Source: Streptomyces sp. NBC_00289 (GTDB taxonomy: Bacteria; Actinomycetota; Actinomycetes; Streptomycetales; Streptomycetaceae). Taken from it: a stretch of DNA of 64,000 nt. The position numbers and the translations under genes were made by a program. Positions 38,649 to 59,986 of this stretch are shown here, in pieces. The DNA is taken from positions 8,494,001 to 8,558,000 of the forward strand of contig NZ_CP108046.1 of the NCBI RefSeq assembly GCF_041435115.1, given 5' to 3'. The notes beneath the pieces are model-generated. The model saw nothing but the letters and a program-made list of their open reading frames with translations. It was not told the origin of the DNA and did not search any database. How positions within the stretch are numbered: position 1 is the stretch's first letter; each line of letters opens with the position of its first letter.

Positions 38649-38653
38649 CCCGG

Positions 38654-39919: not shown

Positions 39920-39974
39920 GGGGTACCACCTTCTGTTCGTGCCACCAGCTGTCCGTGCGAGTGAATGTTCATTT

Positions 39975-40168: not shown

Positions 40169-40221
40169 TTGACAGGTGTCGTTTGGCGCTGGAATATGAG
40201 CGCAATCAAGCAAAATATTGC
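40169..40221 (+). promoter_or_regulatory. Promoter and operator-like dyad of the hydrolase operon
   Basis: TTGACA (40169-40174) and GAATAT (40192-40197) are separated by exactly 17 bases. Immediately downstream are CAAGCA (40207-40212) and the dyad GCAA-AATA-TTGC (40210-40221), covering the expected start region. CAAGCA is also within the 39975-40002 repeat and, as TGCTTG, in the DeoR promoter. The transcript would have a leader of about 75 bases before the GTG at 40279. Confidence 0.55.
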
Positions 40222-40278
40222 ATGAGATTTCATGTAGACGTCACGGCCCTGCCCGGTCCTGTCCGCAGGAGGACCCGA

Positions 40279-43200
40279 GTGCGCTCACATCCGTCCAGAC
40301 GCGCCGCACTACTTGCCGCAGCTCTGACTCTGACGCTCCTCTCACCCGTCACCGAACTCACCACGTCACCCGCCCTGGCGGACACGGCCGCCACCCCCGC
40401 GACGGCCGCCACGCCGAGAGTGACCCGAACCGCCGACGCGGTCACCGTGTCCGTACCGGCCACCCGGTCCGCGCCCGGCTACCGCGTCGAGGTGGCCACC
40501 GACGAACTGGCCCTCGACACCGAACGCACCGGCACCACCCTGCTCGCCACCGCCGGCGGTGACACCGGAGCCCTGAGGTTCCGCTCCGCCGGCGCCTGGC
40601 AGCACGCCACCCAGGTCACCGACTGGTCCTGGAAGAGCGGTGTCCTCACGCTCACCGCCGACACGACGCTCGACGGCGCCACCGTCACAGCCCGCCTCAC
40701 CCCCGAAGCGGACCGCTACCAGCTGGACTGGGACGTCGAGGGCGGCAGCCCCGACCGACTCGGCCTCGCCTACGACCTGTCGTCGGCCGGCCACTGGTAC
40801 GGCCACGGCGAGGCGGAGACCCCGCAGGGCGGTCCCGGCACCGACCAGCCCTGGCCGCTCGACGCCGGTGAGGTCGACCACGAGACCTTCGGCCCGGCGT
40901 CGTACCACATGATCGATCCGTTCTGGTACACCTCGAAGTCGACGGGGCTGCGCGTCGACACCGGGAACGTCCTGGACGTGGCGCTCAACAAGGGCAAGGA
41001 CGGTCTCGGCAGCTTCGTCGTCGAGTCGCCCGACACCTACAAGGCCACCGTGTTCGTCGAGTCGACCCCGCTGGAGGTCTACCGCGACTACATCGGCATC
41101 GTCGGCAAGCCCACCAAGTCCGACGCCCCGTACGAGCAGTACGCCAAGCCGTTGTGGAACTCCTGGGCGCAGTTCTACACCAAGGTCGACCAGGAGAAGC
41201 TGCTCGACTACGCCACCGACCTCCACGACAACGGCCTGGACGGGCACACCATCCAGCTCGACGACAAGTGGGAGTCGAACTACGGCAATCTGACCTGGGA
41301 TCCCAAGACCTTCCCCGATCCCAAGGGACTCTCCAAGAAGATCCACGACATGGGGTTCGACTTCGGCGTCTGGGTCACCCTGTGGATCAACCTGGACTCC
41401 GCCAACTACCAGTACGCGGTCGACCACGGCTATCTGCTCATGGACGCCGAGGACAAGACCAAGCCGTGCGACGTGACCTGGTGGAACGGCGAGGCGGGGA
41501 TCATCGACCTGGCCAACCCCGAGGCCAAGGCCTGGTACGAGGGCAACCTCAAGTCCCTGATGGACACGTACGACATCGACGGGCTGAAGTTCGACACCCG
41601 CTTCTTCGACGAGAGGTGCGCGCCGCGCGAGGGCTCGCAGGTCACGGACTACCAGAAGCTCGGAACGCAGCTCGCCGACGAGTTCGACCTCCAGGGTGCC
41701 GGTATCCGGGTGCACTGGAACAAGACGGCCCACGAGGCCGGCTTCGTCACCCGCCAGGTCGACAAGGGCACCGGCTGGGACTCCCTGCGCGCCTCCGCCT
41801 CCCAGAACCTGGCCATCTCCACCATCGGCTATCCGTTCGTCGAGTCCGACATGATCGGCGGCTCCGGCGGCCAGCCCGCGCCGTCGAAGAACGTGCTCGT
41901 GCGGTGGGCGCAGTCCGCCTCGCTGATGCCGCTGATGTACGCCTCGACCTCTCCCGTGGACACCAACGACACCACCACCGGGCAGAAGGTGGACTACGAC
42001 CAGGAGACGGTCGACCTCTACCGGCAGGCGATCAGGACGCACGAGAAGCTCGCCCCGTACATCTGGGACCAGGTGCAGAGCACCCTGAAGACCGGCGATC
42101 CGATCATGCGGCCGCTGTTCTTCGACTTCCCGAAGGACAAGCCGAGTTACACGGTCGCCGACGAGTGGATGCTCGGCCCGGCCGTGCTCGCCGCGCCGAA
42201 GCTGAGCACCGGCGCCACCCGCTCCGTCCATCTGCCGCCGGGCACCTGGTACGACGTGAACCAGGGCACGGTCATCCGCGGCCCGAAGACCCTCAAGGGG
42301 TACGCGGCACCGCTCGGCGTCACCCCGGCCTTCGTCAACCTCAAGGCCAAGGGCGCGGACAAGGCCATCAAGGCGCTCAAGCGTGACGACGCTCCGGCCG
42401 CCGCCGTCCTGATCACTCCGGACGCCCCGGCCACCGACGCCGGCAAGCCGTTCCAGGTGACCACCGACGTGACCAACTGGAGCACCGGGACCATCAAGAG
42501 CGTCAAGGCGGCCCTTGACCTGCCCGACGGCTGGAGCGCCAAGTCGGCCGGTCCGACCACCGCGAGTTCCCTCAAGAACGGCGCCACCCTCACCACCACC
42601 TGGACGGTGACCCCGGCCGAGGACGCCCGTTGGGGCAGCCATGACCTCACCGGCACCGCCACCTACACCGGGTCCAAGGGCTCGACGAAGGTGTCCGACA
42701 CCGTGCAGGCGCAGGTGAAGGCCGCGCCGGGCAGTGTGCAGGCGCCGTACCTGACGACCGACACCACCTCCGAAGACCCTCAATACGCCCAGGCCGGTGA
42801 CCAGTTCGCCATCTGGGCGGGCGGCCAGGACCTGTCCGGCTGGAAGGACGAGAAGGGCGTCATCTACCGCGACGACGCGGCCGGCGAGAAGTCGACCGTG
42901 CAGGCCCGGTTGGTCTCCCAGAACAGCGCCTCACCGGTCGGCAAGGCGGGCGTCGCCCTCGCCAACGACCTGACCGCACCCGAGAAGGGCGGTTACGCGG
43001 TGCTGGTCATGACCCAGAGCTACGGCCTGGAGTTCATGACCGACAGCGACGGCGACGGGAAGCTCGACACCTGGGCGGGCGGCAATGCCACCTATCACCC
43101 GGCGTACCTCAAGCTGACCAGGGACGGCGCCACCTACACGGCGTACGCCAGCAAGGACGGCCAGACCTGGTCGCAGGTCGGCACCGCCCAGGTGCCGTCG

Positions 43201-43305
43201 GCCGCCGGCACCGAGGACGCCGGGATGGTCGCCAGCGCGGCCAACGTCAACTACCCCGGCGAGAACATCGAAGCCGTCTTCAGCGGATTCACCGTCACCT
43301 CCTGA
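40279..43305 (+). CDS. Secreted GH31 glycosidase with NEW3-like and C-terminal lectin-like modules
   Basis: A 1008-residue exported enzyme. The signal peptide covers about 1-35 (AALLAAALTLTLLSP). A GH31 barrel with nucleophile Asp439 (DGLKFDTRFF) and acid/base Asp524 (FVESDMIGG) runs to about residue 700. A beta-sandwich of the alpha-galactosidase NEW3 type (PFQVTTDVTNWSTGTI) follows, then the shared lectin-like module (about 822-1008) containing DSDGDGKLDTW. The barrel resembles the MYORG/bacterial alpha-galactosidase branch rather than alpha-glucosidases; alpha-GalNAcase activity is another option. AGGAGG 6 bases before the GTG at 40279 decides the start. First gene of the hydrolase run. 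Confidence 0.9.
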   Translation: MRSHPSRRAALLAAALTLTLLSPVTELTTSPALADTAATPATAATPRVTRTADAVTVSVPATRSAPGYRVEVATDELALDTERTGTTLLATAGGDTGALRFRSAGAWQHATQVTDWSWKSGVLTLTADTTLDGATVTARLTPEADRYQLDWDVEGGSPDRLGLAYDLSSAGHWYGHGEAETPQGGPGTDQPWPLDAGEVDHETFGPASYHMIDPFWYTSKSTGLRVDTGNVLDVALNKGKDGLGSFVVESPDTYKATVFVESTPLEVYRDYIGIVGKPTKSDAPYEQYAKPLWNSWAQFYTKVDQEKLLDYATDLHDNGLDGHTIQLDDKWESNYGNLTWDPKTFPDPKGLSKKIHDMGFDFGVWVTLWINLDSANYQYAVDHGYLLMDAEDKTKPCDVTWWNGEAGIIDLANPEAKAWYEGNLKSLMDTYDIDGLKFDTRFFDERCAPREGSQVTDYQKLGTQLADEFDLQGAGIRVHWNKTAHEAGFVTRQVDKGTGWDSLRASASQNLAISTIGYPFVESDMIGGSGGQPAPSKNVLVRWAQSASLMPLMYASTSPVDTNDTTTGQKVDYDQETVDLYRQAIRTHEKLAPYIWDQVQSTLKTGDPIMRPLFFDFPKDKPSYTVADEWMLGPAVLAAPKLSTGATRSVHLPPGTWYDVNQGTVIRGPKTLKGYAAPLGVTPAFVNLKAKGADKAIKALKRDDAPAAAVLITPDAPATDAGKPFQVTTDVTNWSTGTIKSVKAALDLPDGWSAKSAGPTTASSLKNGATLTTTWTVTPAEDARWGSHDLTGTATYTGSKGSTKVSDTVQAQVKAAPGSVQAPYLTTDTTSEDPQYAQAGDQFAIWAGGQDLSGWKDEKGVIYRDDAAGEKSTVQARLVSQNSASPVGKAGVALANDLTAPEKGGYAVLVMTQSYGLEFMTDSDGDGKLDTWAGGNATYHPAYLKLTRDGATYTAYASKDGQTWSQVGTAQVPSAAGTEDAGMVASAANVNYPGENIEAVFSGFTVTS

Positions 43306-43332
43306 CACGCCGGTATCACCAGCCCCCCGGTT

Positions 43333-43371
43333 TCCCGGCAGGCCTCCCCTCCCCCTGGGGGCCTGCCGGGA
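43333..43371 (+). terminator. Strong hairpin inside the hydrolase run, after the first gene
   Basis: TCCCGGCAGGCC (43333-43344) and GGCCTGCCGGGA (43360-43371) are perfect 12-base arms with a C/T-rich loop that could pair further. It lies 28 bases after the first hydrolase stop and 90 bases before the next start. It may attenuate read-through or protect the upstream mRNA 3' end. No U-tract. Confidence 0.6.
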
Positions 43372-43460
43372 CCATCCCCGCGCCCCGGCATGCCTCCCTC
43401 CCCTGGAGGTTCCGCCCGGGACCACTCCCCGCACCTCCGTGAGAGAGGGAACCCAGCCCC

Positions 43461-45329
43461 ATGGCACGTACGTCCTCACTCGCCGCCGGCTTCGTCGCCG
43501 GCGTCGTCGTGGCCGCGAGCACCACCGCGATCGCCGTCACCGGTACGGCGACCTCCAGCACCGGCCTCAGTTCCAAGGCCACCACCACCTGGCTGACCGT
43601 CAAGGTCGCCGACGCCATGGGCACCAGGGACACCATCACCTGGGTCCCCACCGGCTCCTTCGCCGGCTCCGCGGAAGAACGGGTCCCGCGCTACCCGATG
43701 ACCCCCATCCAGGGCAAGGACACCAAGGAGCTGAAGCTCTCCGCCGTCCGCAACGAGCAGGTCTCGGCGCAGCTGGCGATCGCCTCCGGCAAGAACCTGG
43801 ACGACGTCAGCGCCGTGGTCGGCGACCTCACCGGGCCCGGTGGCGCGAAGCTGTCCGGTGCCGGCACCCAGGTCCGGTTCGTCAAGTACGTACCCGTGCA
43901 GCGTTCCAAGAGCGAGGTCGACTGGTCCGCCACCATCGACCAGGTCAGCTCCGGCAAGGAGGTGTCCGGCGACCGCAACCCCGATGTGGTCGGCGACCCG
44001 CTGGAGGAGGGGGCCTCGGTGGACGTACCCGCGTACGCCGCGCAGCCGCTGTGGTTCACCTTCCACATCCCCAAGGCGGCCAAGCCCGGCACCTACACCG
44101 GCACGGTGAAGGTCAAAGCCGACGGCCGCACCCAGAGCACGTACCCGCTGACCATCGAGGTCGCCGACGCGAGCGTGCCCGACCCGAAGGACTACCGCTT
44201 CTTCCTCGACGTGTGGGCGCAGCCGGAGACGATCGCCAAGAACCACGGCGTCAAGCTCTGGTCCGACGAGCACTGGAAGCTGATCGACACGTACGACCGC
44301 GACCTGGCCTCGCACGGCCAGAAGGTCATCAACACCACCATCGTCGACAACCCGTGGCACCACCAGTGGTCGCTCGGCACCCGGGAGTCGCAGACCGCCA
44401 CGCCGTACACCAGCATGGTGGGCTGGACCTGGAACGGAAAGACGTTCTCCTTCGACTTCAGCCGCTGGGACAAGTACGTCCAGGCCGCCAGACGCGCCGG
44501 TCTCGGGCCCGACATCGGCGCTTTCTCCATGCTGGCCTTCCAGGACCAGGAGCACCTCACCTACACCGACACCAGCACCGGCAAGACCATCTACGAGAAC
44601 GTCGATCTGGGCGGCGACCGCTGGCGTCAGGCGTGGGGAGCGTTCCTTCCGGCCTTCGAGAAGCACCTGAAGGCGAAGGGCTGGCTGAACAACACCTGGC
44701 TGTCCTTCGACGAGCGGCCCATCGACACCATGACGGTCGTCAAGAACTTCGTCCACGAGGTCGCGCCGGCCTTCGACGACCGCATCTCCGTGGCAGGTTC
44801 GATCAACACCGAAGGCGTCGCGTCCAACCTGTCCGTCGACTGGGGCGGCATCGACGCGATGACGAAGGAGAAGGTGGAGGAACGGCGCAAGGCCGGCCAG
44901 ATCACGACCTTCTACGTGTACGGCTCGCCCGCCCACCCCAACACGCTGTCCTACTCGCCCGCCGTCGAGTCGCGGATGCTGCCCTGGATCTCCGCCCAGC
45001 GGAATCTGGACGGTTTCCTGCGCTGGTCGTACAACAGCTGGACCAGTGATCCCTTCAAGCAGCCGGTGCACATCTTCACGCAGGGCGACGAGTACCTGGT
45101 CTATCCGGGCACGGACGGCCCGATGTCCAGCATCCGCTGGGAGCAGCTGAAGGAGGGCGTCGAGGACTACGAACTCATCGCCCAGCTGCGGAAGAAGGAC
45201 GGCGGCGCCGACAGCGGCGCCCTGACCGACGCTCTCACCACCGCGACCCGGAACCTCGACGGCCGGACGAAGGACGTCAACGACATCGAGACCGCGCGTG
45301 CGGCAGTCGTGAAGGGGCTGACGTCATGA
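43461..45329 (+). CDS. Secreted GH123-like (DUF4091) glycoside hydrolase
   Basis: A 622-residue exported protein. The signal peptide is about 1-30 (SLAAGFVAGVVVAASTTAIA). An N-terminal beta-sandwich (about 35-235; FTFHIPKAAKPGTYTGTVKV) precedes a TIM barrel of the DUF4091/GH123 type (RFFLDVWAQPETIA, then WLSFDERPID with the adjacent Asp417-Glu418 pair used in GH123 substrate-assisted catalysis, and LKEGVEDYELIAQL near the end). GH123 enzymes are beta-N-acetylgalactosaminidases, so this protein may remove beta-GalNAc. The ATG is preceded by GAGAGAGGG about 12 bases upstream. Its stop overlaps the GH35 start by 4 bases. Confidence 0.85.
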   Translation: MARTSSLAAGFVAGVVVAASTTAIAVTGTATSSTGLSSKATTTWLTVKVADAMGTRDTITWVPTGSFAGSAEERVPRYPMTPIQGKDTKELKLSAVRNEQVSAQLAIASGKNLDDVSAVVGDLTGPGGAKLSGAGTQVRFVKYVPVQRSKSEVDWSATIDQVSSGKEVSGDRNPDVVGDPLEEGASVDVPAYAAQPLWFTFHIPKAAKPGTYTGTVKVKADGRTQSTYPLTIEVADASVPDPKDYRFFLDVWAQPETIAKNHGVKLWSDEHWKLIDTYDRDLASHGQKVINTTIVDNPWHHQWSLGTRESQTATPYTSMVGWTWNGKTFSFDFSRWDKYVQAARRAGLGPDIGAFSMLAFQDQEHLTYTDTSTGKTIYENVDLGGDRWRQAWGAFLPAFEKHLKAKGWLNNTWLSFDERPIDTMTVVKNFVHEVAPAFDDRISVAGSINTEGVASNLSVDWGGIDAMTKEKVEERRKAGQITTFYVYGSPAHPNTLSYSPAVESRMLPWISAQRNLDGFLRWSYNSWTSDPFKQPVHIFTQGDEYLVYPGTDGPMSSIRWEQLKEGVEDYELIAQLRKKDGGADSGALTDALTTATRNLDGRTKDVNDIETARAAVVKGLTS

Positions 45330-48300
45330 AAGGCAGGTGGAGATCACTGCTGCTTGCCGGAGCGCTGACTGCCATGTCCCTGACCGGCGCGGGTGTCGTG
45401 ACACCGGCCCAGGCGGAGCAGCAGACCCCGGCGCGGCACACCGTCACCTACGACCAGTACTCCGTGCGGGTCGACGGCAAGCCCCTGTACATCTGGGGCG
45501 CCGAGCTCCACTACTTCCGACTGCCCAGCCCCGACGCGTGGCGCGACGTCCTGCAGAAGATCAAGGCGGGCGGGTTCAACGCGGTCTCGCTCTACTTCGA
45601 CTGGGGCTACCACACGGCCAAGCCGGGCTCGTACGACTTCACCGGCATCCGCGACGTGGAGCGGCTGCTCGACGAGGCCGAGCGCGCCGGCCTGTATGTG
45701 ATCGGCCGCCCGGGCCCGTACATCAACGCGGAGGTCTCCGGCGGCGGCATGCCCGCCTGGCGGTCGACCCAGGCCGGTGTGAACCGCACCTCCGAGCCGG
45801 AGTACATGAAGGCGGCCCGGGAGTGGATGAGCCGGATCAACCCGATCATCGCGCGTCACCAACTCACCCGTGGCACCGGTTCGGTGATCCTGTACCAGAT
45901 CGAGAACGAGTACCAGGGCGGTCGCCACGACGCCGACTACATGCAGACCCTCATCGACTGGGCGAAGGAGGACGGCATCGATGTGCCCACCTTCGTCAAC
46001 GACGGCGGCGCCAACCAGAACTGGGTCAGCGGCAAGGGCGCCCCGGACATCTACGGCTTCGACGCCTACCCGCAGGGCTTCGACTGCAAGGACCCCGACA
46101 CCTGGAAGAACCTCCCCGACTATTCGTACGTCAACGAGTGGAAGCCCGAGTCCCCGCTGATCATCCCGGAGGCACAGGGCGGCGCCTTCGACCCCTGGGG
46201 CGGCACCGGATACCAGGACTGCGCGAAGCTCACCGGCACCGACTTCACCCGGGTGTTCAGCAAGATGAACATCGCCGCCGGAGTGAGCGGCCAGTCCTTC
46301 TACATGACGTACGGCGGCACCAACTGGGGCTGGCTCGCCGACCCCAACGCGGTCTACACGTCGTACGACTACGGGGCCCCGATCAACGAGTCCCGCCAAC
46401 TGACGGACAAGTACCAGGAGTTCAAGCGCCTCGGGTACATGGTCAACTCCGTCACCTCGCTGGCGCGCACCGACAAGGCCGAGGCCCCCACCCCGACCGA
46501 CGACGCCCTGCGCATCGACCGTCGCGTCAACCCCGACGACGGCACCCAGTTCTTCACCGTGCGGCACGCCGACACCCGCGTGAAGGACAGGGACGAGACC
46601 ACCCTGTCGCTGAAGGGCGCGGACGGCGACTACCGGCGCGTACCCCAGCAGGGAACGATCACGGTCGACGGCCGGGACGCCAAACTCCTCGTCGCGGGCT
46701 ACGACCTGGGCGAGAAGCAGCGGCTCGTCTACTCCACCTCGGAGATCATGACGCACGCCCGGATCGGCGACCGGGACGTGGCGCTGCTGTACGGGCGTGC
46801 GGGCGAGGCCGGCGAGACCGTGCTGCGGTACGCCGAGCGCCCCGAGGTCAAGGTCTTCGACGGCGATGTCACCACCACCTGGGACGCCGAACGCGGCGAC
46901 CTGCGCCTGAACTACACCCACAAGGGCCTGGCCCGCGTACGGGTGAACGGCATGGAACTGCTGATCGCCGACACCGCGGAGACCGCCCACTGGTGGCGCC
47001 AGGACACCGCCGCGGGCCCGGTCCTCGTACGAGGACCGTCCCTGGTCCGTACGGCCGAACAGGCGGACGGCACCCTGAAACTGACCGGTGACTCCACCAA
47101 GGCCGCGAAGATCGAGGTCATCGCGGACGCCAAGAAGGTGACCTGGAACGGCCGCGAGGTCGCCGTCACCCGGGCGCCGCTCCCGGTCCAACTGCCCAAG
47201 CTGACGACGTGGAAGTACAAGGAGGAGGCCCCGGAGTCCGCTCCCGGCTTCGACGACTCCACCTGGACCACCGCCGACCACCTCACCGCCAACAACGCGG
47301 CGCTGGCCGGGTCGCTGCCGGTCCTCGCGATGGACGAGTACGGCTTCCACCACGGCAACGTCTGGTACCGCGGCCGGTTCAGGACCACCGGTGCCGCGAC
47401 CGCGCTCGCACTCGACGCCAAAACCGGTAACACCGGCCAGTACGCGGTCTGGCTCAACGGCCGCTACCTCGGCAGCTCCGGCGACGGTGCGCACACCTTG
47501 GACATCCCGGCGGGCACGCTGAAGGCCGGTGGCGACAACGTCCTCTCCGTCCTCGTGGAGAACGCGGGCCACAACGAGGAATGGGGCCACGACTACTCCA
47601 AGGAGCCACGCGGTCTGCTCAGTGCCGAGGTGATCGGCGGGGCCTCCACCCTCACCTGGAAGATCCAGGGCAACCGGGGCGGCGAGGACCCGGTGGACAC
47701 CGCACGGGGCCCTTACAACAACGGCGGGCTGTACGGGGAGCGGGCCGGCTGGTCGCTGCCGGGCTTCCCCGACGGCGGCTGGAAGAGCACCACCCTCTCC
47801 GGGCAGGCAGCCAAGACCGAGCCCGGCGTGCGCTGGTACCGCACCTCCGCCCGGCTCGACCTGCCGCAGGGCCAGGACAACGCGCTCGCGCTGGATCTCG
47901 CCGAACCCGCGGGCGGCAGCACCGGCTATCGCGCCGAGATCTTCGTCAACGGCTGGCTGATCGGCCGCTACCTGCCGGACACCGGACCACAGACACGGTT
48001 CGTCATTCCCAAGGGCCTCCTGCGTGAGCAGGGCAGCAACACCATCGCCCTGGCCGTGTGGTCCACCAAGGCCGGCGCGGGCCCGGGCTCGGCCAAGCTC
48101 GTCGACCTCGGCGCCTCGGCGGGCGGGATCAGGGTCGGTACGGTGGCCGCGCCCTCGTACGACGCCAAGACCTACGCCCTGCCGGCCGCGGGCGCCCGGG
48201 TCACCGTCGACGCCGAGCCGTTCCTGGCCACCGGCACCGCGACCAAGGTCCCCGTCACCCTCAGCGTGCCGAAGGACGCGCCGACCGCCCGGAACGTCGC

Positions 48301-50976: not shown

Positions 50977-50986
50977 GGGGCGTCAG

Positions 50987-52207
50987 ATGCATGGGATACG
51001 CGGCAGGCTCGCGGCGTTGCTCCTGGCGGTCTCGGCCGTCGTGGCCGGGACGGTGGCACCCGCCGAGGCCGGTCAGCAAGGCGACGGGCGCGGCTGGACC
51101 GGGACCTGGGCGACGGCGGCCAGCGAGCACTACGAGGTCTCGGGGATGTCCGAGGTGACGGTACGGATGCCGGTGCACACCAGCGTCGGCGGCTCGTCCG
51201 TACGCATCCGGCTGACCAACGCCTACGCCACCGACCCGGTGGCGATCGGACACGCGACCGTGGGCCTGCACGACGGGGGTTCCGCCGTGGCGCGCCCGTA
51301 CGACCTGCGATTCGGCGGGAAGCGCGCGGTCACCATCCCGGCGGGCGGCCAGGCGGTGAGCGATCCGGTCGGACTCGCCGTGCCGGCCCTGACCGACCTG
51401 GTCGTCAGTCTCCATCTGCCCGGCCAGGTCACACACATCACCGATCACTGGTGGGCGCAGCAGACCGTGTACTGGACGGACTACGGTGCGGGCGACCACG
51501 CCGCCGACACCTCCGGCGACGCCTACACCTGGACCACCACGAGCTGGCCGTTCCTCAGCGGCGTCGACGTGACCGCGCCGAGGACCGGGTCGGTGGTGGC
51601 GCTCGGCGACTCGATCACCGACGGGTCGTACTCGACGGCCGACACCAACCAGCGCTGGCCCGATCTGCTGTCGGCCCGGCTGAACGCCTGTCTGCCCGGC
51701 GCCGGAGTGCTCAACGCGGGCATCACCAGCAACCGGATCACCGCCGGGACCGCGACGAATCCCTCGGCGCTCGACCGGCTCGACCGGGATGTGCTCTCCC
51801 AGCCGGGCGCCAGGACCCTGATCCTCTTCGAGGGGATCAACGATCTCGGCGGGGCGAGTGCCGAGCAGATCATCGCCGGGATGACGGAGATCGCCGACCG
51901 GGCGCACCGGCGCGGCATGCGGGTCGTCGGCGCCACCATCACCCCGTACAAGGACTTCACCTGGGGTGGCTGGAGCGAGGAGACGGAGGGGCGGCGGCAG
52001 CAGGTCAACGCGTTCGTCCGGGCCTCCGGCAGGGTCTTCGACGACTACGCCGACTTCGACCGGGCGGTCCGGGACCCGGCGGATCCGCGGCGGCTGGGCG
52101 CGGCGTACGACTCCGGTGACCATCTGCATCCCAATGACGCCGGGATGAAGGCATTCGCCGACTCCATCGACCTGATGTCGCTCGGCCTCGGCCGCGGCTG
52201 TTCCTGA
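50987..52207 (+). CDS. Secreted SGNH/GDSL hydrolase, short form
   Basis: A 406-residue exported esterase. The signal peptide is about 1-28 (AALLLAVSAVVAG). A beta-rich N-terminal domain (TWATAASEHYE, SSVRIRLTNAY) precedes the SGNH domain with Ser209 in GDSITDG, the Gly/Asn blocks (FEGINDLGG) and the Asp-x-x-His dyad in SGDHLHPND. Members of this arrangement remove O-acetyl or other acyl groups from glycans, which would expose capped sugars to the neighbouring glycosidases. It lies 10 bases after the GH31 gene and 9 bases before a close paralogue. Confidence 0.9.
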   Translation: MHGIRGRLAALLLAVSAVVAGTVAPAEAGQQGDGRGWTGTWATAASEHYEVSGMSEVTVRMPVHTSVGGSSVRIRLTNAYATDPVAIGHATVGLHDGGSAVARPYDLRFGGKRAVTIPAGGQAVSDPVGLAVPALTDLVVSLHLPGQVTHITDHWWAQQTVYWTDYGAGDHAADTSGDAYTWTTTSWPFLSGVDVTAPRTGSVVALGDSITDGSYSTADTNQRWPDLLSARLNACLPGAGVLNAGITSNRITAGTATNPSALDRLDRDVLSQPGARTLILFEGINDLGGASAEQIIAGMTEIADRAHRRGMRVVGATITPYKDFTWGGWSEETEGRRQQVNAFVRASGRVFDDYADFDRAVRDPADPRRLGAAYDSGDHLHPNDAGMKAFADSIDLMSLGLGRGCS

Positions 52208-52216
52208 GGAGGAACC

Positions 52217-54364
52217 GTGTCCAGACGGCTTGAACACCTGCTGGGGCACCGACGATTCGCGGTCCTTGCCACGGCGTTGGCCGCCACGGTGGCAGCCCTG
52301 CTTCCGGTGGCGCCGGCCGCTGCCGAGACCGCGCAGCCGGGTTGGACGGGGACGTGGGCGACCGCCCAGCACGCCGCGTACGACCCGGGTACCTCGGAGG
52401 TGACGGTTCGGATACCGGTGCGGGTGAGCGCCGGCGGGTCGAGCGTGCGCATCCGCCTGACCAACGACTTCACCACCGAGCCGGTGACGATCGGACACGC
52501 GACCGTCGGACTTCGGGATGGTGGTTCCGCCGTCTCGAAGCCGCAGAAGCTGCGGTTCGGCGGGAAGAGCGGGGTGACGATCGCGGCCGGCGAGCAGAGG
52601 GCCAGCGATCAGGTCCGGCTCACCGTGCCCGCCCGCAGCGATGTGGTCATCAGCCTGTACTTCCCCGGCCGGCTCACCCACATCAGCCAGCACTGGATGG
52701 GCCTCCAGACGGTCTACTGGACGCCCGACGGCGGCGGCGACCACGCCGCGGACGCCGACGGCGACGCCTTCACGAAGACCGACTCCACCTTCCCGTTCCT
52801 GACCGGTGTCGACGTACGGGGCGGCAACGCGGCGGGCGCCGTGGTGGCGCTCGGCGACTCCATCACCGACGGCGCGGCCTCCACCTCGAACGCCAACCGG
52901 CGCTGGCCCGACTATCTCGCCGGGCGGCTGTCGGCCTGTTCGTCCGCCGCCGGAGTGCTGAACGAGGGCATCAGCGGCAACCGGATCACGGCCGGCGTGG
53001 ACGGCAACCCGTCGGCGCTGGACCGGCTGGAGCGCGATGTGCTGTCACAGCCGGGCGCCCGGACGGTGGTCCTGTTCGAGGGCGTCAACGACCTCAGCTG
53101 GGGCGGCGCCACCGGTGATCAGGTGATCGACGGCATGAAGGAGATCGTGCGCCGCGCCCACGAACGCGGGCTGCGTGTGATCGGCGCGACGGTCGTGCCG
53201 TATCGCGGCTGGGGCGACTGGTGGACCGAGGCCAAGGAGACCGACCGGCAGAAGGTCAACACGTTCGTCCGCGACGGCGGAGTCTTCGACGGCTACGCCG
53301 ACTTCGACAAGGCCGTACGGGACCCGGACGACCCCACCCGCTACGGCGCCGCGTTCGACTCCGGTGACCATCTGCACCCCAACGACGTCGGGATGAAGGC
53401 CTTCGCCGACGCCGTCGACCTCACCACCCTCGGGGCGGGCCGCGGCTGCCCGTCGGCCCGCGTCCGGATCACCCCGTACCGGCCGACCCTGCGGGCCGGC
53501 GGCGACGGCACGGAGATCACGTCGACCGTCACCAACACGGGCACCAGAGCGGTCACCGAGGTCAGCACGCGTCTCGATCTCCCCGACGGCTGGTCCGCCG
53601 AACCGGCCGGCAGCACGCGGGTACGCTCCCTCGCCCCGGGCGACAGCGCCAAGGTCACCTGGACGGTGACGCCGACGGCCGACGCGATCTGGGGCACCCA
53701 CGAGATCGGCGTACGCACCTCCTTCGTCCAGGACGGCCGGACACGGCACGACTCCGACAGCGTGGACGCCACGGTGACCCCCGCTCCGTCCGAGGTGCGG
53801 GCGCCGTGTCTGACGACCGCCACCACGACGGAGAAGGCCCAATATGCCCAGAACGGCGACCAGTTCGCCATTTGGGCGGGCGGCCAGGACCTGTCCGGCT
53901 GGAAGGACGAGAAGGCGGCGGTCTACCTCGCCGACGCCGCGCCGTCGTCCGGCTCCGTGACCGCCCGGGTCGTCGGTCAGACCGGCAGCGGCCCGTCCGC
54001 CAAGGCGGGGATCGCCGTGGCCAACGACCTCACCTCGCCTCAGGCGGGCGGCTACGCGGTGCTCACCATGTCCGCGCAGTACGGCCTGGAGTTCATGACC
54101 GACAGCGACGGTGACGGGAAGCTCGACACCTGGGCCGGGGGCGGCAGTTCGTACCACCCCGCCTGGCTGAAGATCGTCCGCGACGGCACCGCCTACACGG
54201 CGTACGCCAGTTCCGACGGCACCGCCTGGCAGCAGGTCGCCACCGCCACCGTTCCCTCCGCGAGCGGCACCGGGGACGCAGGTCTGGTCGCGAGCGCGGT
54301 CAACCTCAACTACCCCGGCCAGATCACGACCGCACTTTTCGACTCCTTCTCCACCCAAGAGTGA
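52217..54364 (+). CDS. Secreted SGNH/GDSL hydrolase with NEW3-like and lectin-like modules
   Basis: A 715-residue exported protein. Signal peptide about 1-36 (LATALAATVAALLPVAPAAA), then the same beta domain and SGNH hydrolase as the previous gene (Ser215 in GDSITDG; FEGVNDLSWGG; SGDHLHPNDVG) to about residue 412. A NEW3-type sandwich (about 415-525; LDLPDGWSAEPAGS) and the shared lectin-like module (about 527-715, with DSDGDGKLDTW) follow. The tandem pair evidently arose by duplication, with only this copy carrying the added modules, as for the two GH31 genes. TGAGGAGGA precedes the GTG at 52217. Confidence 0.9.
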   Translation: MSRRLEHLLGHRRFAVLATALAATVAALLPVAPAAAETAQPGWTGTWATAQHAAYDPGTSEVTVRIPVRVSAGGSSVRIRLTNDFTTEPVTIGHATVGLRDGGSAVSKPQKLRFGGKSGVTIAAGEQRASDQVRLTVPARSDVVISLYFPGRLTHISQHWMGLQTVYWTPDGGGDHAADADGDAFTKTDSTFPFLTGVDVRGGNAAGAVVALGDSITDGAASTSNANRRWPDYLAGRLSACSSAAGVLNEGISGNRITAGVDGNPSALDRLERDVLSQPGARTVVLFEGVNDLSWGGATGDQVIDGMKEIVRRAHERGLRVIGATVVPYRGWGDWWTEAKETDRQKVNTFVRDGGVFDGYADFDKAVRDPDDPTRYGAAFDSGDHLHPNDVGMKAFADAVDLTTLGAGRGCPSARVRITPYRPTLRAGGDGTEITSTVTNTGTRAVTEVSTRLDLPDGWSAEPAGSTRVRSLAPGDSAKVTWTVTPTADAIWGTHEIGVRTSFVQDGRTRHDSDSVDATVTPAPSEVRAPCLTTATTTEKAQYAQNGDQFAIWAGGQDLSGWKDEKAAVYLADAAPSSGSVTARVVGQTGSGPSAKAGIAVANDLTSPQAGGYAVLTMSAQYGLEFMTDSDGDGKLDTWAGGGSSYHPAWLKIVRDGTAYTAYASSDGTAWQQVATATVPSASGTGDAGLVASAVNLNYPGQITTALFDSFSTQE

Positions 54365-54375
54365 GAGGCATGTTG

Positions 54376-55824
54376 ATGCCCGTCGACCGCAGACACTTCA
54401 TGACCACCGCTGCCGCCCTCGGTGGCGCGGTGCTGCTCGCCCCGCCCGGCACCGCCCAGGCGCTCACCTCGGGTGCCACGTCCGGAGCCCCGGGCATTCC
54501 CGACTACCAGGCCACCAAGGCATCCCTCGACACCCACCCGGTGCCGCGCTGGTACAAGGACGCCAAGTTCGGCATCTTCGTCCACTGGGGCGTCTACTCG
54601 GTGATCGGCGGCGCGACGCCGAGAAGCGCCTCCGAGTGGTACCTGTGGTACCAGAGCACCAAGGACACCGCCGAGTGGAAGTACCACCGCGAGACCTACG
54701 GCGAGGACGTCACCTACGACGACCTCATCCCGCGGTTCAAGGCCGAGAAGTACGACCCCGACGCCTGGGTGCGGCTGTTCGAGCAGGCGGGCGCCGAGTA
54801 CTTCGCACTGACCAGCAAGCACCACGACGGATTCGCCCTGTTTCCCAGCAAGGTGACGGACCGCCACTCCGTCGCGTACGGCCCGAAGCGTGACCTCGTC
54901 GGCGAGCTGATGACGGCGGCGCGCAGACGCGGCACCGTGCGGCCCGGCCTTTACTACTCGCTCGGCGAGTACTTCAACCCGGCGATCGGCCGGCCGATGC
55001 GCAACTTCTACACCGACAAGGAGATCCCGATGACCGGCTACAAGCCGGTCAAGGACTACGTCGGTGACTACGAACTCCAGCAGCTGTACGAGATCATCGA
55101 CCGCTACGACCCGGAACTGCTGTGGGCGGACGGACAGTGGTTCCGGCCCACGGACAACCCTCCGTGGCGCAGTGAGGAACCCATGGCCCACTACTACAAC
55201 CGGGCCAAGAACCGTAAGCACCCCAAGGGTGTGGTGATCAACGACCGGTTCGACACCCACTTCGACTTCGCCACGTACGAGCAGCGCACCAACCCCACGA
55301 TGGACCCGCAGAAGTGGGAGTGCTGCATGACCATGGGCTACTCCTGGGGCTACAACAAGCACGAGCCGGACGAGGACTACAAGACCTCGGAGTTCCTGAT
55401 CCACCTGCTCGCCGACGTGGTCAGCAAGAACGGCAACCTGCTGCTCAACATCGGCCCCAGGCCGGACGGCACGATCCCCGCCATCATGCAGGAGCGGCTG
55501 CGGGACATCGGCGCCTGGCTGAAGGTCAACGGCCCGGCGATCTACGGTTCGACGCCCTGGGTGCGGGCCGAGGAGGAGGGCAGCCCGCTCGGCATCCGGT
55601 ACACCGTCTCCCCGGGCACGTTCAACATCATCGTGCTGGGCAGACCCGACGGAACCCTCTCGGTGCCCGGCGACATCCCCGTCGGCGCCACCTCACGCAT
55701 ACGACTGCTCGGCACCGGCGGCAACCTGCGGTGGACCCGCCGTGACGGAAGGATCGACATCACCGTGCCGTCCACCCTGCCGAGCGACATCGCCAACGTC
55801 TTCACCGTCGAATGGGCCAGGTGA
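54376..55824 (+). CDS. Secreted GH29 alpha-L-fucosidase
   Basis: A 482-residue exported fucosidase. A Tat-like signal (PVDRRHFMTTAAALGGAVLL) is followed by the GH29 barrel with DAKFGIFVHWGVYSVIGG, TSKHHDGFALFPSK and the nucleophile Asp252 in ELLWADGQWF. NLLLNIGPRPDGTIP and a small C-terminal sandwich complete it. It releases alpha-linked fucose, common on animal glycans. GAGAGG lies 7 bases before the ATG at 54376; in-frame starts at 54361 (GTG, overlapping the previous stop) and 54370 are possible. The next gene overlaps or abuts the stop and looks like a detached tail of this enzyme. Confidence 0.92.
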   Translation: MPVDRRHFMTTAAALGGAVLLAPPGTAQALTSGATSGAPGIPDYQATKASLDTHPVPRWYKDAKFGIFVHWGVYSVIGGATPRSASEWYLWYQSTKDTAEWKYHRETYGEDVTYDDLIPRFKAEKYDPDAWVRLFEQAGAEYFALTSKHHDGFALFPSKVTDRHSVAYGPKRDLVGELMTAARRRGTVRPGLYYSLGEYFNPAIGRPMRNFYTDKEIPMTGYKPVKDYVGDYELQQLYEIIDRYDPELLWADGQWFRPTDNPPWRSEEPMAHYYNRAKNRKHPKGVVINDRFDTHFDFATYEQRTNPTMDPQKWECCMTMGYSWGYNKHEPDEDYKTSEFLIHLLADVVSKNGNLLLNIGPRPDGTIPAIMQERLRDIGAWLKVNGPAIYGSTPWVRAEEEGSPLGIRYTVSPGTFNIIVLGRPDGTLSVPGDIPVGATSRIRLLGTGGNLRWTRRDGRIDITVPSTLPSDIANVFTVEWAR

Positions 55825-55829
55825 TCCGC

Positions 55830-56771
55830 ATGGGAATCCGCAACGACACCAGGTTCGACACCCTCGGACCCACGCTCACCGTCACCACGGAGCCGGCCGA
55901 GCCCGCCGCCGGCGACACGGTGACCGCCACCGCGGTCCTCACCAACGACTGCCCCTTCCCGCTCCGCAACACCGTGCTCCACCTGATCGACCCCGGCGCC
56001 GTCACGGCGGCGAAGACCATCCCGCTGGGCGACCTGCGGCGTGGCGCGAAAATCACCCGGCGCTGGCGGACGGCGGTCCCCGCAGACGTGGCCGGGAACG
56101 TGGCGTTCACCGCGCACGCACTGTTCGACGTCGACGGACACAGCGCCGACTGCGTCCGGTCCGCCAGGACGTTCACCCTCCCCTACGAGGCCAACGGCGT
56201 GCGCGCCCCGTACACGACGTACGCCACCACCGACGACGCCGAGTACGGCCAGTACGGCACCCAGTTGGTGATCTGGGCGGGCGGCCGTGACCTGTCGGGC
56301 GGCACCGACGAGAAGGGCGTCATCCGCCTCCCGGGCACCGTCTCCGACGCCGGCGTGGTGCAGGCCAAGGCCGTCAGCCTGACCGGCAGCGACAACCCCA
56401 CCGCCAAATCGGGGATCGCCATCGCCAACGACCTGACGGCGCCCGAGAAGGGCGGCTACGCGGTGCTGACCATGTCGGCGCGGTACGGCCTGGAGTTCAT
56501 GGCCGACAGCGACGGCGACGGACACCTCGACACCTGGGCCGGCGGCGGCGTCTCCTACCACCCCGTCTGGCTGCGGCTGGTCCGTTCCGGCACCACCTGC
56601 ACCGCGTACGCCACCGGCAACGGGCTCACGTGGGACGAGATCGGCAGCGCGACCGTGCCCTCGGCGAGCGGCACCGGGGACGCCGGTCTCATCGCGAGCG
56701 CCGTCAACCTCAACTATCCCGGTACGACGGTCCAGGCGGTCTTCGACCACTTCACGGTCGAGGCGACATGA
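55830..56771 (+). CDS. NEW3-like plus lectin-like module protein without catalytic domain or signal peptide
   Basis: A 313-residue protein made only of accessory parts: a beta-sandwich (about 1-122; LTVTTEPAEPAAGDTVTATA) and the shared lectin-like module (about 126-313) with DSDGDGHLDTW. No signal peptide is seen (MGIRNDTRFDTLGPTLTV). It begins 5 bases after the fucosidase stop in another frame, and longer starts (GTG 55821, ATG 55812) overlap that stop. In two neighbours the same two modules are the tail of a hydrolase, so it looks like a fucosidase tail split off by a frameshift, or a subunit made by coupled translation. AGGTGA lies 5 bases before the ATG used. Confidence 0.75.
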   Translation: MGIRNDTRFDTLGPTLTVTTEPAEPAAGDTVTATAVLTNDCPFPLRNTVLHLIDPGAVTAAKTIPLGDLRRGAKITRRWRTAVPADVAGNVAFTAHALFDVDGHSADCVRSARTFTLPYEANGVRAPYTTYATTDDAEYGQYGTQLVIWAGGRDLSGGTDEKGVIRLPGTVSDAGVVQAKAVSLTGSDNPTAKSGIAIANDLTAPEKGGYAVLTMSARYGLEFMADSDGDGHLDTWAGGGVSYHPVWLRLVRSGTTCTAYATGNGLTWDEIGSATVPSASGTGDAGLIASAVNLNYPGTTVQAVFDHFTVEAT

Positions 56772-56881
56772 GCGGTGACCGGGCAACGAGCCCGTACCCG
56801 CCCGAGCCGACGTACCCGAGCCGGACCCGGCCCCGCGCGGCGTCGCGATGACGGTCGCCCGACACCTGTGAAAGGACGTAC

Positions 56882-59800
56882 ATGCACGACAACCACCACC
56901 TCACCCGCAGACGTGTGCTGACCGGTATGGCCGCTCTCGGCGGCGCGGTGCTCCCGGCCTGGCCGCAGAGCGCCCTGGCCGCCACCGCCGGGTCGCGCGA
57001 CACCTCACCGGCCGCCGCCGCGCTGCGCCGGATCGTGCCCGCCCACCACCGGCAGGTCACGCTGCGCGCGATCGCCGGCAACGGAGGCGACCGCTTCCGG
57101 GTCACCGGCAGCACCGGCGACATCAGGATCGAGGGCACCAGCCCCGCCGTCCTGCTCACCGGCTTCAACACCTACCTCGCCCGGGTCGCCAAGGCCGACG
57201 TCTCCTGGAACGGGGAGCAGTTGAACCTGCCCCGGCTGCTGCCCGCCCCGGCCGGGGAGATCACCGGAACCGCGAACGTCCCGCACCGGTTCGGCTTCAA
57301 CGACACCAACGAGGGGTACACCGGCGCGTACCGGGACTGGGCGGCCTGGGAACGCGAACTCGACGTGCTGGCCCTGCACGGCATCAACGAGGTGCTCGTC
57401 TACATCGGCGCCGACGCCGTCTACTACGACACCTTCCGGGACTTCGGCTACACCGACGCGGAGCTGCGGTCCTGGATCCCCGCCCCCTCCCACCAGCCCT
57501 GGTGGCTGCTGCAGAACATGTCGGGGTTCGGCGGCCCGGTGTCCCGGCAGCTCATCGAGCGGCGCGCCGGCCTCGCCAGGAAGATCGTCGACCGGGTGCG
57601 GGAACTTGGCATGACACCGGTGCTGCCCGGCTACTTCGGCACCGTGCCGGACGGCTTCGCGGCCAGGAACCCCGGCGCGGCGCTGGTTCCCCAGGGCACC
57701 TGGGGCGCCTTCCGACGGCCGGACTGGCTCGACCCGCGCAGCCGTCTCTTCACCCAGGTCGCCGCCGCCTTCTACCGGCACCAGCGCACCCGCCTCGGCG
57801 ACAGCACCATGTACAAGATGGACCTGCTGCACGAGGGCGGCAACGCCGGGGACGTGCCGGTCGGCGAGGCGGCCAAGGCCGTCGAGGCAGCGCTGCGCAA
57901 GGCCCACCCCGGAGCGGTCTGGGCGATCCTCGGCTGGCAGGACAACCCGCGGCGGGAGATCCTCGACGCCGTCGACCGGAGCAGGATGCTCATCGTCGAC
58001 GGGCTGTCGGACCGGTACACCACGGTCACCGACCGGGAGAGCGACTGGGACGACACCCCGTACGCCTTCGGCAGCATCTGGAACTTCGGCGGCCACACCC
58101 CGATCGGCGCCAACACCCCCGACTGGGTGGACCTGTACCCGAAGTGGCGGGACAAGGACGGCAGCGCGCTCGCCGGGATCGCGATGATGCCCGAGGGCGC
58201 CGACAACAACCCCGCCGCGATGGCACTCCTCACCGACCTCGCCTGGACGCCCGGCACCATCGACCTGGACGACTGGTTCGCCTCCTACGCGACCTCCCGC
58301 TACGGCGCCAGGGACCCGCACGCCGTCGCGGCCTGGAAGGTCATCCGCGACACCGCGTACAACATGACCCGCGCGGACGGGTGGAGCGAGGCACCCGACG
58401 GGCTGTTCGGCGCCCGGCCCAGCCTCGGCGCCGACAAGGCCGCCGCCTGGGGTCCCGCGGCCGAGCGCTACGACACCACGGCGTTCGACGCGGCGCTCAC
58501 CGAACTGCTCCAGGTCGCACCACGGTTCCGTGACAGCTCGGCCTACCGCTACGACCTGGCCGACGTCACCCGGCAGGTGCTCTCCAACCGCAGCCGGCTG
58601 CTGCTGCCGCAGATCAAGGCCGCCTACGAAGCCCGCGACAAGAAGCGCTTCGCCGACCTCACCAGGACCTGGCTGAGCTGGATGAAGCTGCTCGACAAGG
58701 TGCTCGCCACCAGCCCCCAGCACCTGCTCGGTCCCTGGCTGGCCGACGCCCGCTCCTGGGGCGCCACCACCGCCGAGCGGAACAAGCTCGAGTACGACGC
58801 TCGCTCGCTCATCACCACCTGGGCTGGCCGGGAAAGCAGCGAGGAAGGACTGCACGACTACGCCAACCGGGAGTGGTCCGGCCTGGTCGGCGGCCTCTAC
58901 CTCACCCGTTGGAAGACGTACTTCGGCGAGCTGTCCGCCGCCCTCGCCACGGACCGGCAGCCCGCGGACATCGACTGGTTCGCCCTCGAGGACGACTGGG
59001 CGCACCGGCACGACACCTATCCCGTCGAGGCCACCGGCGACATCCACCGGCTGGCCCGTCAGGTGCGCGCCACCCTCGCGGCCGACCCGCACCAGGCCGC
59101 GCTGACCGCGTCCGCCGACAAGGCGTCGGTGACACCGGGGCAACCGGTCACGCTCACCGTGTCGTTCACCAACCGCAACGGGTTCGCACCGGCCACGGGC
59201 GTGACCCTGTCCGTCGAAGCACCGGACGGGATGACCGCCCGCCCGGTCGGCGCGACGACCAACGCCTCGGTCGCCCCGGGCGAGACGTTCACGGCGACGT
59301 TCGCACTCACCCTCACCCAGGCCGGAGACACGCTGGTCACCAGGGTGCCGGCCAGCGCGTCCTTCACCTCCGGCGGCGCACGCGGCTCGGCCTCGGCGTC
59401 GGTGCGCGTGATGGCCGGCAGCGGGGTGCGGGACCCCTACCTGACCGCCTCCTTCAACGACGCGGTCTTCGGCCAGTCCGGCGACACCCTCGCCATCGAG
59501 GCCGCCGGCGCCGACCTGTGGGGCGGCACCAACGAGTTCGGCACGATCTACCGCGCCGGTGCCTACCAGGACACCTCCGTGGCCACGGTGAAGGTCGTGT
59601 CGCAGGACACCACCGGAGGCTGGGCCCGCGCCGGGCTGATCGTCCGCAACGACCTGTCCGCCAACGGGAGCGCCGGATACGTCAATCTGGCGGTGACCCC
59701 GTCCAACGGCTGCGCGCTGTCCTGGGACGCGAACGGCGACGGGACGTTCGACTCGATCGCCATGAGCGGCTCACTCGGCGCTCCCGCCCATCTGCGGCTG

Positions 59801-59986
59801 ACCCGGGCGGGCGGCACCTACACCGGGGAGTGCAGCTCCGACGGCATCACCTGGACCACCGTCGGCACGGCCACCCCCGGCTCCGCCGCCGCCACCCAGG
59901 ACGTCGGCGTCTTCATGACAGCGGCCAACGGCTGGACCGGCACCCGGGGAATCGCCGAGTTCCAGGACTTCACCGTCCGCACCTGA
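56882..59986 (+). CDS. Secreted GH89 alpha-N-acetylglucosaminidase with lectin-like module
   Basis: A 1034-residue exported NAGLU-type enzyme. A Tat signal (LTRRRVLTGMAALGGAVLPA) is followed by the N-terminal alpha/beta domain, the barrel with PHRFGFNDTNEGYTGAYRDW, acid/base Glu318 (MDLLHEGGN) and nucleophile Glu438 (MMPEGADNNP). The helical C-terminal domain is followed by a NEW3 sandwich (about 745-848) and a divergent copy of the shared module (about 850-1034; DANGDGTFDSI). GH89 removes alpha-linked GlcNAc as found on gastric mucin and heparan sulfate. GAAAGGA precedes the ATG. Last gene of the run, followed by two hairpins. Confidence 0.92.
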   Translation: MHDNHHLTRRRVLTGMAALGGAVLPAWPQSALAATAGSRDTSPAAAALRRIVPAHHRQVTLRAIAGNGGDRFRVTGSTGDIRIEGTSPAVLLTGFNTYLARVAKADVSWNGEQLNLPRLLPAPAGEITGTANVPHRFGFNDTNEGYTGAYRDWAAWERELDVLALHGINEVLVYIGADAVYYDTFRDFGYTDAELRSWIPAPSHQPWWLLQNMSGFGGPVSRQLIERRAGLARKIVDRVRELGMTPVLPGYFGTVPDGFAARNPGAALVPQGTWGAFRRPDWLDPRSRLFTQVAAAFYRHQRTRLGDSTMYKMDLLHEGGNAGDVPVGEAAKAVEAALRKAHPGAVWAILGWQDNPRREILDAVDRSRMLIVDGLSDRYTTVTDRESDWDDTPYAFGSIWNFGGHTPIGANTPDWVDLYPKWRDKDGSALAGIAMMPEGADNNPAAMALLTDLAWTPGTIDLDDWFASYATSRYGARDPHAVAAWKVIRDTAYNMTRADGWSEAPDGLFGARPSLGADKAAAWGPAAERYDTTAFDAALTELLQVAPRFRDSSAYRYDLADVTRQVLSNRSRLLLPQIKAAYEARDKKRFADLTRTWLSWMKLLDKVLATSPQHLLGPWLADARSWGATTAERNKLEYDARSLITTWAGRESSEEGLHDYANREWSGLVGGLYLTRWKTYFGELSAALATDRQPADIDWFALEDDWAHRHDTYPVEATGDIHRLARQVRATLAADPHQAALTASADKASVTPGQPVTLTVSFTNRNGFAPATGVTLSVEAPDGMTARPVGATTNASVAPGETFTATFALTLTQAGDTLVTRVPASASFTSGGARGSASASVRVMAGSGVRDPYLTASFNDAVFGQSGDTLAIEAAGADLWGGTNEFGTIYRAGAYQDTSVATVKVVSQDTTGGWARAGLIVRNDLSANGSAGYVNLAVTPSNGCALSWDANGDGTFDSIAMSGSLGAPAHLRLTRAGGTYTGECSSDGITWTTVGTATPGSAAATQDVGVFMTAANGWTGTRGIAEFQDFTVRT

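Follow-up and report, generated by a model that had tools for sequence, protein, structure and literature searches.

A secreted glycosidase operon and its conservation

The DNA analysed here is a 64 kb stretch (the window, C1:8494001-8558000) of the 11.0 Mb genome of Streptomyces sp. NBC_00289, in which nine genes on the forward strand fill positions 40279-59986 and encode a set of putative secreted glycan-degrading proteins (Table 1). In gene order the Pfam matches are to glycoside hydrolase (GH) family GH31, GH123 (E-value 7.8e-90), GH35 (1.8e-89), GH31, SGNH (4.5e-25), SGNH (8.9e-27), GH29 (1.5e-108), none, and GH89 (1.4e-103). The original prediction, an earlier reading of the same letters, had described nine co-directional genes of these families with tight junctions and two wider gaps, and the coordinates and Pfam matches confirm it: successive junctions are 155 nt, overlaps of 4 and 1 nt (TGATG), 10 nt, 9 nt, an overlap of 4 nt, 5 nt and 110 nt, where the second GH31 gene (GH31b) is started at 48970 and not at the TTG at 48877, and the eighth gene, for MOD1, at 55830. 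Leaders were called by hydropathy (best 12-residue mean), not by SignalP, and all of the proteins have a hydrophobic N-terminal segment (1.78-2.85) except MOD1 (1.12), in agreement with the claim that all but one product carries a signal peptide. MOD1 is also the module-only protein that had been foreseen, having no Pfam match at E 0.01 and consisting of NEW3 and DUF1349-like modules by homology to those of its neighbours in the operon. This block is common to GH31a, SGNH2, GH89, and MOD1, at 34-60% identity in pairwise BLAST, and GH35 bears NEW3 and NPCBM according to Pfam. Directly upstream of the operon, and overlooked in the original prediction, Pfam identifies a DeoR-family regulator (AgaR1) and a divergent ATP-binding cassette (ABC) importer.

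This gene system is real and conserved. A close relative of GH123 is present in 7 of 246 Streptomyces genomes, including that of the window; among 394 genomes sampled from the class there are 10 with such a relative, 7 of them outside Streptomyces and at only 33-45% identity. A pattern scan gave 28 named GH123 loci (25 Streptomyces, 2 Wenjunlia, and 1 Rhodococcus rhodnii) where, as far as each locus sequence extends, GH31a is present in 26, GH35 in 24, a DeoR regulator in 21, and an ABC binding protein in 15; the synteny check that had been called for thus finds GH31a and GH35 beside GH123 more often than by chance. Six genomes could be read across the full cluster, with G177 and G182 taken as the same as L012 and L027, and GH31a, GH123, SGNH2, GH29, MOD1, and GH89 are in all of them. 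Variable between loci are GH31b, SGNH1, and a second copy of GH35, sharing about 49% identity with the first copy and located right after it in L009, L010, L012, L016, L017, L035, and others, which is absent from the window.

The set GH31a-GH123-GH89 persists in the smallest versions of the cluster, in Wenjunlia L025 and L036, the smallest of all being DeoR-GH31a-GH123-GH89 in Wenjunlia vitaminophila (L036). Here a PfkB-family sugar kinase gene follows GH89 (L036:15648-16868), for which there are elsewhere only 36-41% matches in five genomes. Rhodococcus rhodnii, a gut symbiont of blood-feeding bugs, has a separate cluster (L032:3020-14802) of a LacI regulator, ABC genes, GH29-PA14, GH123, and GH89. 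The named carriers are associated with soil and plants and include scab species.

Predicted operators and a distant SIS-aldolase operon

An expectation-maximisation (EM) search of 45 non-redundant upstream regions (of 83) revealed a DeoR-like direct repeat close to TGCwyGwTTnTGCTyGwTT, with a score of 316.6 as against 85.0-97.2 in six dinucleotide shuffles, and a motif trained upstream of the ABC sugar-binding protein (SBP) genes reached the regions upstream of the DeoR genes (4.80 against -2.44, standard deviation 0.78, in 40 shuffles). The degenerate motif, with one mismatch or fewer, has 13 sites in the genome compared to 5 for the reversed-pattern control, and its sole perfect match is 184 kb past the window, between the gene for AgaR2, a second AgaR-like regulator 61% identical to AgaR1, and a gene for a SIS-domain protein (SIS), after which comes a class II ketose-bisphosphate aldolase gene. 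SIS is found in 229 of the 246 Streptomyces genomes (E 1e-30). In the best 30 loci from these 229 genomes, the site is present upstream of SIS in all 30 with no more than one mismatch (the fraction of mononucleotide shuffles reaching two is 0.002), the aldolase is likewise in all 30, and AgaR2 is in 27, a 35% match in L067 being set aside as stray. The conserved operator is seen at L051:8491-8627 and in the 30 SIS loci L053-L082, upstream of the SIS-aldolase operon across Streptomyces.

A position weight matrix (PWM) trained only on the first half-site of the SIS operators has its five best matches in the 64 kb at 40195, 39966, 39994, 40205, and 35863, every one of which falls at the DeoR promoter or between SBP and GH31a; scores drop from 7.9 for the fifth to 3.3 for the next. 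The same five lead when both half-sites are used for training, the sixth (9.9 at 3244) being unrelated. A stricter pattern, composed after inspection of the SIS sites, finds only three sites with two or fewer mismatches in 11 Mb, at the SIS promoter and two at the operon; at three mismatches it is at background, with 30 matches in all versus 31 for the reversed control. In the relatives with ABC genes, the best SBP site is mostly 20-32, comparable to the SIS sites, and in 34 other sequences 96 of the 136 top-four matches are upstream of DeoR, SBP, or GH31a, although many are low-scoring. A sigma-70 scan of 35700-40400 gave no match; TTGACA-17-GAATAT at 40169-40197 is a reading by eye only.

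Since the top five matches of the SIS-trained PWM in the window fall at the promoters of the operon system, and sites with two or fewer mismatches occur only there and at SIS, exo-glycosidases acting outside the cell, import, and the catabolism of amino-sugar phosphates are probably linked in one AgaR-like regulon. By sequence, one candidate operator is found at a regulator, a transporter, and putative amino-sugar catabolic genes, as would be expected of an AgaR-type regulon. This link, for which the sequence evidence is strong, is the firmest new result, and the predicted regulon supports the earlier suggestion that the system is a dedicated one. In G140, G141, and G182, three of the seven operon carriers, AgaR2 is gone from beside SIS and the operator is retained, the sole AgaR-like protein at E 1e-40 being the operon's own. 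Among the best 30 SIS loci, AgaR2 is missing in 3 of 5 operon carriers and in none of the 25 others.

The explanation proposed, which has a probability of roughly 0.6, is that the operon supplies the extracellular part of an AgaR-like amino-sugar regulon, together with the importer and the distant catabolic operon, and acts on an animal-type branched heteroglycan. The secreted exo-enzymes would trim a branched heteroglycan with beta-N-acetylgalactosamine (GalNAc), alpha- and beta-galactose (Gal), alpha-fucose (Fuc), alpha-N-acetylglucosamine (GlcNAc), and ester groups. Most likely this would be a glycoconjugate of animal type, from invertebrates or vertebrates, that is present in soil. The imported sugar would come from the products, taken up by the divergent ABC system, and the SIS protein, as an isomerase/deaminase, would with the class II ketose-bisphosphate aldolase consume amino-sugar phosphates. 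One repressor type, with a sugar phosphate as the inducer that frees it, would open three promoters.

The best NCBIfam model for both AgaR1 (207.3 bits) and AgaR2 (188.8 bits) is AgaR. A role in galactosamine (GalN) use is likely, because GH123 marks the core of the cluster and both regulators match AgaR best; the operator held in common with the SIS-aldolase operon, along with the AgaR-like regulators, is an independent pointer to amino sugars. According to the available part of PMC4694137, AgaS and AgaY of E. coli deaminate/isomerise GalN-6P and cleave tagatose bisphosphate, and NagA of S. coelicolor acts on GalNAc-6P (PMC12680351, excerpt). The resemblance to the E. coli aga (GalNAc/GalN) regulon with AgaR, AgaS, and AgaY (PMC4694137, in the same part) lies in a DeoR repressor nearest to AgaR and in a SIS enzyme and class II aldolase under a common operator. 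The differences are the nine-gene secreted-enzyme operon, an ABC importer where E. coli has a phosphotransferase system, and a SIS protein that is not AgaS-like by score. In Streptomyces, the CebR, DasR, and BxlR regulons also combine a repressor, an ABC importer, and secreted hydrolases, and the present system is like them in this; it differs in that the substrate would be a heteroglycan instead of cellulose, chitin, or xylan, the repressor is AgaR-like, and a distant catabolic operon is added.

Several observations weigh against this explanation. The scores of the two regulators (207 and 189) are under the equivalog cut-off of 260, and the SIS protein has 82-87 bits with GlmD/GlmS versus 23.5 bits with AgaS, so that the pathway may serve glucosamine-6P (GlcN-6P) rather than GalN, and the aldolase could be specific for either fructose or tagatose. 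Four of the seven operon carriers retain two AgaR-like proteins, and the AgaR2 losses count as about two events because G140 and G141 are near relatives. An AgaR2-like protein is present in 200 of the 246 genomes at E 1e-75, with AgaR1 matches counted, versus 229 for SIS, which means that its absence is not confined to operon carriers. Motifs trained upstream of DeoR or GH31a alone showed no clear transfer, the SBP-to-GH31a transfer test used shared intergenic DNA, and there is no good operator in L020, upstream region included, and only a weak one in Wenjunlia L025. Lastly, an endo-enzyme is missing from the operon, its nine genes having no Pfam match to an endo-enzyme, sulfatase, or sialidase.

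It could instead be that there is no single glycan, and that the operon is a general exo-glycosidase kit scavenging the stubs of many glycoconjugates. The enzyme families are mostly exo-acting, and the presence of GH31b, SGNH1, the second GH35, and MOD2 varies from species to species, as might be expected of such a kit. The pairing of GH31a and GH123 in 26 of the 28 loci and the operator tie to one catabolic operon argue otherwise, and make a general kit rather improbable.

Table 1. Features at the operon and in the region upstream of it
Feature	Position	Strand	Basis
Candidate AgaR-type operator upstream of DeoR gene	35863..35880	+	SIS-trained PWM, rank 5 (first half-site) or 2 (two-half) in 64-kb window
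AgaR1, DeoR-family regulator	35969..36757	+	Pfam DeoRC, HTH_DeoR
ABC sugar permease 2	36835..37689	-	Pfam BPD_transp_1
ABC sugar permease 1	37689..38648	-	Pfam BPD_transp_1
ABC sugar-binding protein (SBP)	38654..39919	-	Pfam SBP_bac_1 9.5e-37
Candidate operator, SBP/GH31a intergenic	39966..39983	+	SIS-trained PWM; 2 mismatches in genome scan
Candidate operator, SBP/GH31a intergenic	39994..40011	-	Top two-half PWM match; 3 mismatches in genome scan
Candidate operator upstream of GH31a	40195..40212	-	SIS-trained PWM; 2 mismatches in genome scan
Candidate operator upstream of GH31a, overlapping 40195..40212 repeat	40205..40222	-	EM motif, genome scan, SIS-trained PWM
GH31a, putative MYORG-like alpha-galactosidase, with NEW3 and DUF1349-like module	40279..43305	+	Pfam, structure-relative alignment
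GH123, putative beta-N-acetylgalactosaminidase	43461..45329	+	Pfam, structure-relative alignment
GH35, putative beta-galactosidase (like fungal multi-domain enzymes), with NEW3 and NPCBM	45326..48970	+	Pfam, structure-relative alignment
GH31b, with the MYORG catalytic Asp equivalents and Glu/Glu in place of D353/D354	48970..50976	+	Pfam, alignment
SGNH1, putative SGNH esterase 1	50987..52207	+	Pfam, alignment
SGNH2, putative SGNH esterase 2, with NEW3 and DUF1349-like module	52217..54364	+	Pfam, alignment
GH29, putative alpha-L-fucosidase, RR (Tat-like) signal	54361..55824	+	Pfam, alignment, signal motif
MOD1, signal-less NEW3 and concanavalin-like module protein	55830..56771 (longest open reading frame from 55812)	+	Homology, hydropathy, structure model
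GH89, putative alpha-N-acetylglucosaminidase, with NEW3 and DUF1349-like module, RR signal	56882..59986	+	Pfam, alignment, signal motif

Enzyme specificities and the likely target

The best solved relatives of GH31a are the bacterial GH31 alpha-galactosidase 8j53 and MYORG. In an alignment read by hand, it retains the equivalents of MYORG W321, D353, D354, W426, K461, D463, R504, R517, and D520, and the +1 residue D213 is replaced by Glu, residue numbers and roles being taken from the available part of PMC9491548. In that account R504 and R507 of MYORG occupy the room that an N-acetyl group would need. Because all nine of the residues checked are kept, alpha-Gal activity is favoured for GH31a over alpha-GalNAc activity, against which the retained R504 argues. 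In GH31b the catalytic pair, R504, and the other checked residues are kept and the equivalents of D353/D354 are Glu/Glu, which departs from the MYORG-like set and would mean that this protein may act on a different sugar or be impaired. The R504 equivalents in both GH31a and GH31b speak against a GH31_18-type alpha-N-acetylgalactosaminidase, which has a pocket for the N-acetyl group at the place of MYORG R504/R507. This Glu/Glu pattern is found in 9 of 35 sequences scanned by a regular expression that misses some GH31b copies, two of the nine being from the same contig.

GH123 is closest to 5l7v/5l7r among solved structures and keeps the DE catalytic pair (a motif taken from an excerpt of PMC11087588), with DERP aligned to 5l7v; the pair and the catalytic domain match place it in the family. 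The GH29 and GH35 domains are above the Pfam cut-off, as are the NAGLU N, TIM-barrel, and C domains of GH89. The closest solved relatives are the beta-galactosidases 1tg7 and 5ifp for GH35, presumably fungal enzymes, 1hl8 for GH29, and 2vc9 (412 bits) and 4xwh (270 bits) for GH89. SGNH2 is closest to 7tog (213 bits), an acetyl-xylan esterase of a type (FjoAcXE-like) that the available part of PMC9105624 describes as having a GNSI motif and Arg193. In place of this signature there are GDSI...Ala in SGNH2 and GDSI...Ser in SGNH1. The SGNH enzymes therefore appear to resemble xylan esterases minus their signature and, having relatives with carbohydrate-binding modules (CBM-SGNH) and lacking GNSI and Arg193, would be assignable neither to xylan nor to mucin esters. 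The original interpretation thus stands as regards families, secretion, and operon organisation, and is not supported in its alpha-GalNAc reading of GH31a, given the retained R504, or in taking the SGNH proteins for mucin deacetylases.

A GalNAc-bearing heteroglycan is the favoured target and an animal (mucin-like) source is plausible, the mucin or invertebrate assignment coming from family lore. It is possible, if doubtful, that the operon serves dedicated mucin O-glycan utilisation, its enzymes stripping the caps and arms of blood-group and gastric-mucin glycans. GH29, GH35, GH123, and NPCBM would fit this, and the nearest relative of GH89, 2vc9, is one that we take to be the Clostridium perfringens CpGH89. 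In the relevant part of PMC3313936, CpGH89 acts on the GlcNAc-alpha-1,4-Gal of class III mucin, and the mucin degrader Hoskinsella makes use of GH89 and GH31 enzymes (PMC13096917, excerpt). However, GH31a is MYORG-like where the Hoskinsella enzyme is GH31_18, those hosts that are named are associated with soil and plants, and with sialidase and sulfatase missing from the nine genes, the sole BNR_2 sialidase match in the genome is 1.7 Mb from the operon. A search for GH101 was negative too, but its positive control likewise gave no match, so that absence of GH101 cannot be claimed. The GH89, GH123, GH29, GH35, and GH31 families are shared with gut mucin-glycan systems, from which the locus differs in its Streptomyces host, Sec/Tat-type secretion (Tat, twin-arginine translocation), MYORG-type GH31, and lack of a sialidase or endo-enzyme.

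The presence of scab species among the named carriers could instead suggest a fungal, bacterial, or plant heteroglycan, such as galactosaminogalactan, an O-antigen, or a capsule. All five sugars are known from bacterial polysaccharides, and the SGNH2 relative 7tog is an acetyl-xylan esterase (PMC9105624, as above). That the xylan-esterase signature is altered in both SGNH proteins speaks against such a target and leaves it an uncertain prospect. In addition, we know of no GH89 activity on polymers of fungi, bacteria, or plants. The preferred explanation, of an AgaR-like regulon directed at an animal-type glycan, would equip Streptomyces, a genus noted for its use of chitin and plant polymers, with a defined pathway into complex glycans that carry GalNAc, made testable by the predicted operators, the inducer class, and the distant catabolic operon. 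Among the papers listed in searches of one open-access library, none dealt with such a Streptomyces system.

MOD1, MOD2, and the GH29 fucosidase

Next to the regulon and conservation, which are sequence-based results, MOD1 and MOD2 are the strangest part of the system. Neither the MOD1 of the window nor any of 63 full-length database entries has a signal peptide, the leader mean being 1.19 at most, although in one entry the first 50 residues reach 2.17, inside the domain. The MOD1 frame is +2 relative to that of GH29 in 12 loci as well as in the window, with an ATG or GTG exactly 5 nt past the GH29 stop in 12 of the 13 sequences and a GTG at 14 nt in L023. A GH29-MOD1 fusion by frameshift or read-through was rejected, since this start codon and the lack of a slippery heptamer, by eye, make reinitiation the simpler explanation. 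That MOD1 is debris was also rejected, given dN/dS (non-synonymous to synonymous rate ratio) values of 0.32-0.41 in 5 comparisons and the 63 full-length entries, the window's own included. No GH29-MOD1 fusion in cis that would prove a partnership was seen, with 0 of the 120 GH29 homologues listed matching MOD1 at E 1e-3; some listed homologues bear NEW3 and F5/8C in cis. Leaving aside R. rhodnii, whose GH29 is a distant one, GH29 and MOD1 are both present in all 12 loci that extend beyond GH29, as in all 6 full clusters, and L025, L028, and L036 have neither. Entries P0019 and P0191 of Actinoallomurus acanthiterrae have adjoining locus tags. A twin-arginine (RR) motif is found in 12 of 15 GH29 proteins that are the window's own or have 64% identity or more, the other three beginning inside the leader or domain, but it is not special to MOD1 carriers, because 23 of 35 short and 22 of 67 long other GH29 homologues have it.

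MOD2 is a second signal-less module protein, of a NEW3/CARDB-like and an AziU2-like domain, that separates MOD1 from GH89 in each of the six full clusters, five times as an open reading frame and in G096 only as a tblastn match; it is also seen at L040:3943-4848. In the window it is missing, this position being the 110 nt at 56772-56881. None of 105 full-length entries has a hydrophobic leader (highest 1.35), and the one entry scanned has no catalytic domain. Many database entries label MOD2 a beta-glucosidase. The structure model of MOD1 has two beta-sandwiches (pLDDT 89.6, pTM 0.83), the C-terminal one matching yeast 3o12 at rank 12 by E-value and with the best TM-score by target, 0.74, among the matches listed. 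For MOD2 (pLDDT 91.1, pTM 0.79), the best matches are Streptomyces AziU3/U2 chains, at TM 0.75-0.78 by target.

Signal-less partners adjoin a protein with a Tat-type signal here, as judged by motif and hydropathy, which is the gene arrangement of a Tat hitchhiker, and MOD1/MOD2 beside the fucosidase are a candidate hitchhiker complex. Tentatively, GH29 might be a multi-subunit fucosidase in which it is the sole bearer of the Tat signal, and MOD1 (with MOD2 in relatives) would be a signal-less sugar-binding subunit, made by coupled translation, folding on GH29 in the cytoplasm, and leaving with it through Tat. The E. coli PaoABC is a precedent for three-part Tat co-export (PMC4273604, excerpt) and likewise has signal-less partners encoded beside a protein with a Tat-type signal; in contrast, the candidate partners here, MOD1/MOD2, resemble sugar-binding modules. 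If true, carbohydrate-binding modules would here leave the cell in trans with an enzyme, as its hitchhikers, rather than fused to it; a cytoplasmic role and another route of export are possible alternatives.

Just upstream of the regulator, 31346-35712 holds a gene for an S9 prolyl oligopeptidase-like protein and one for COX1, with no link to the operon seen.

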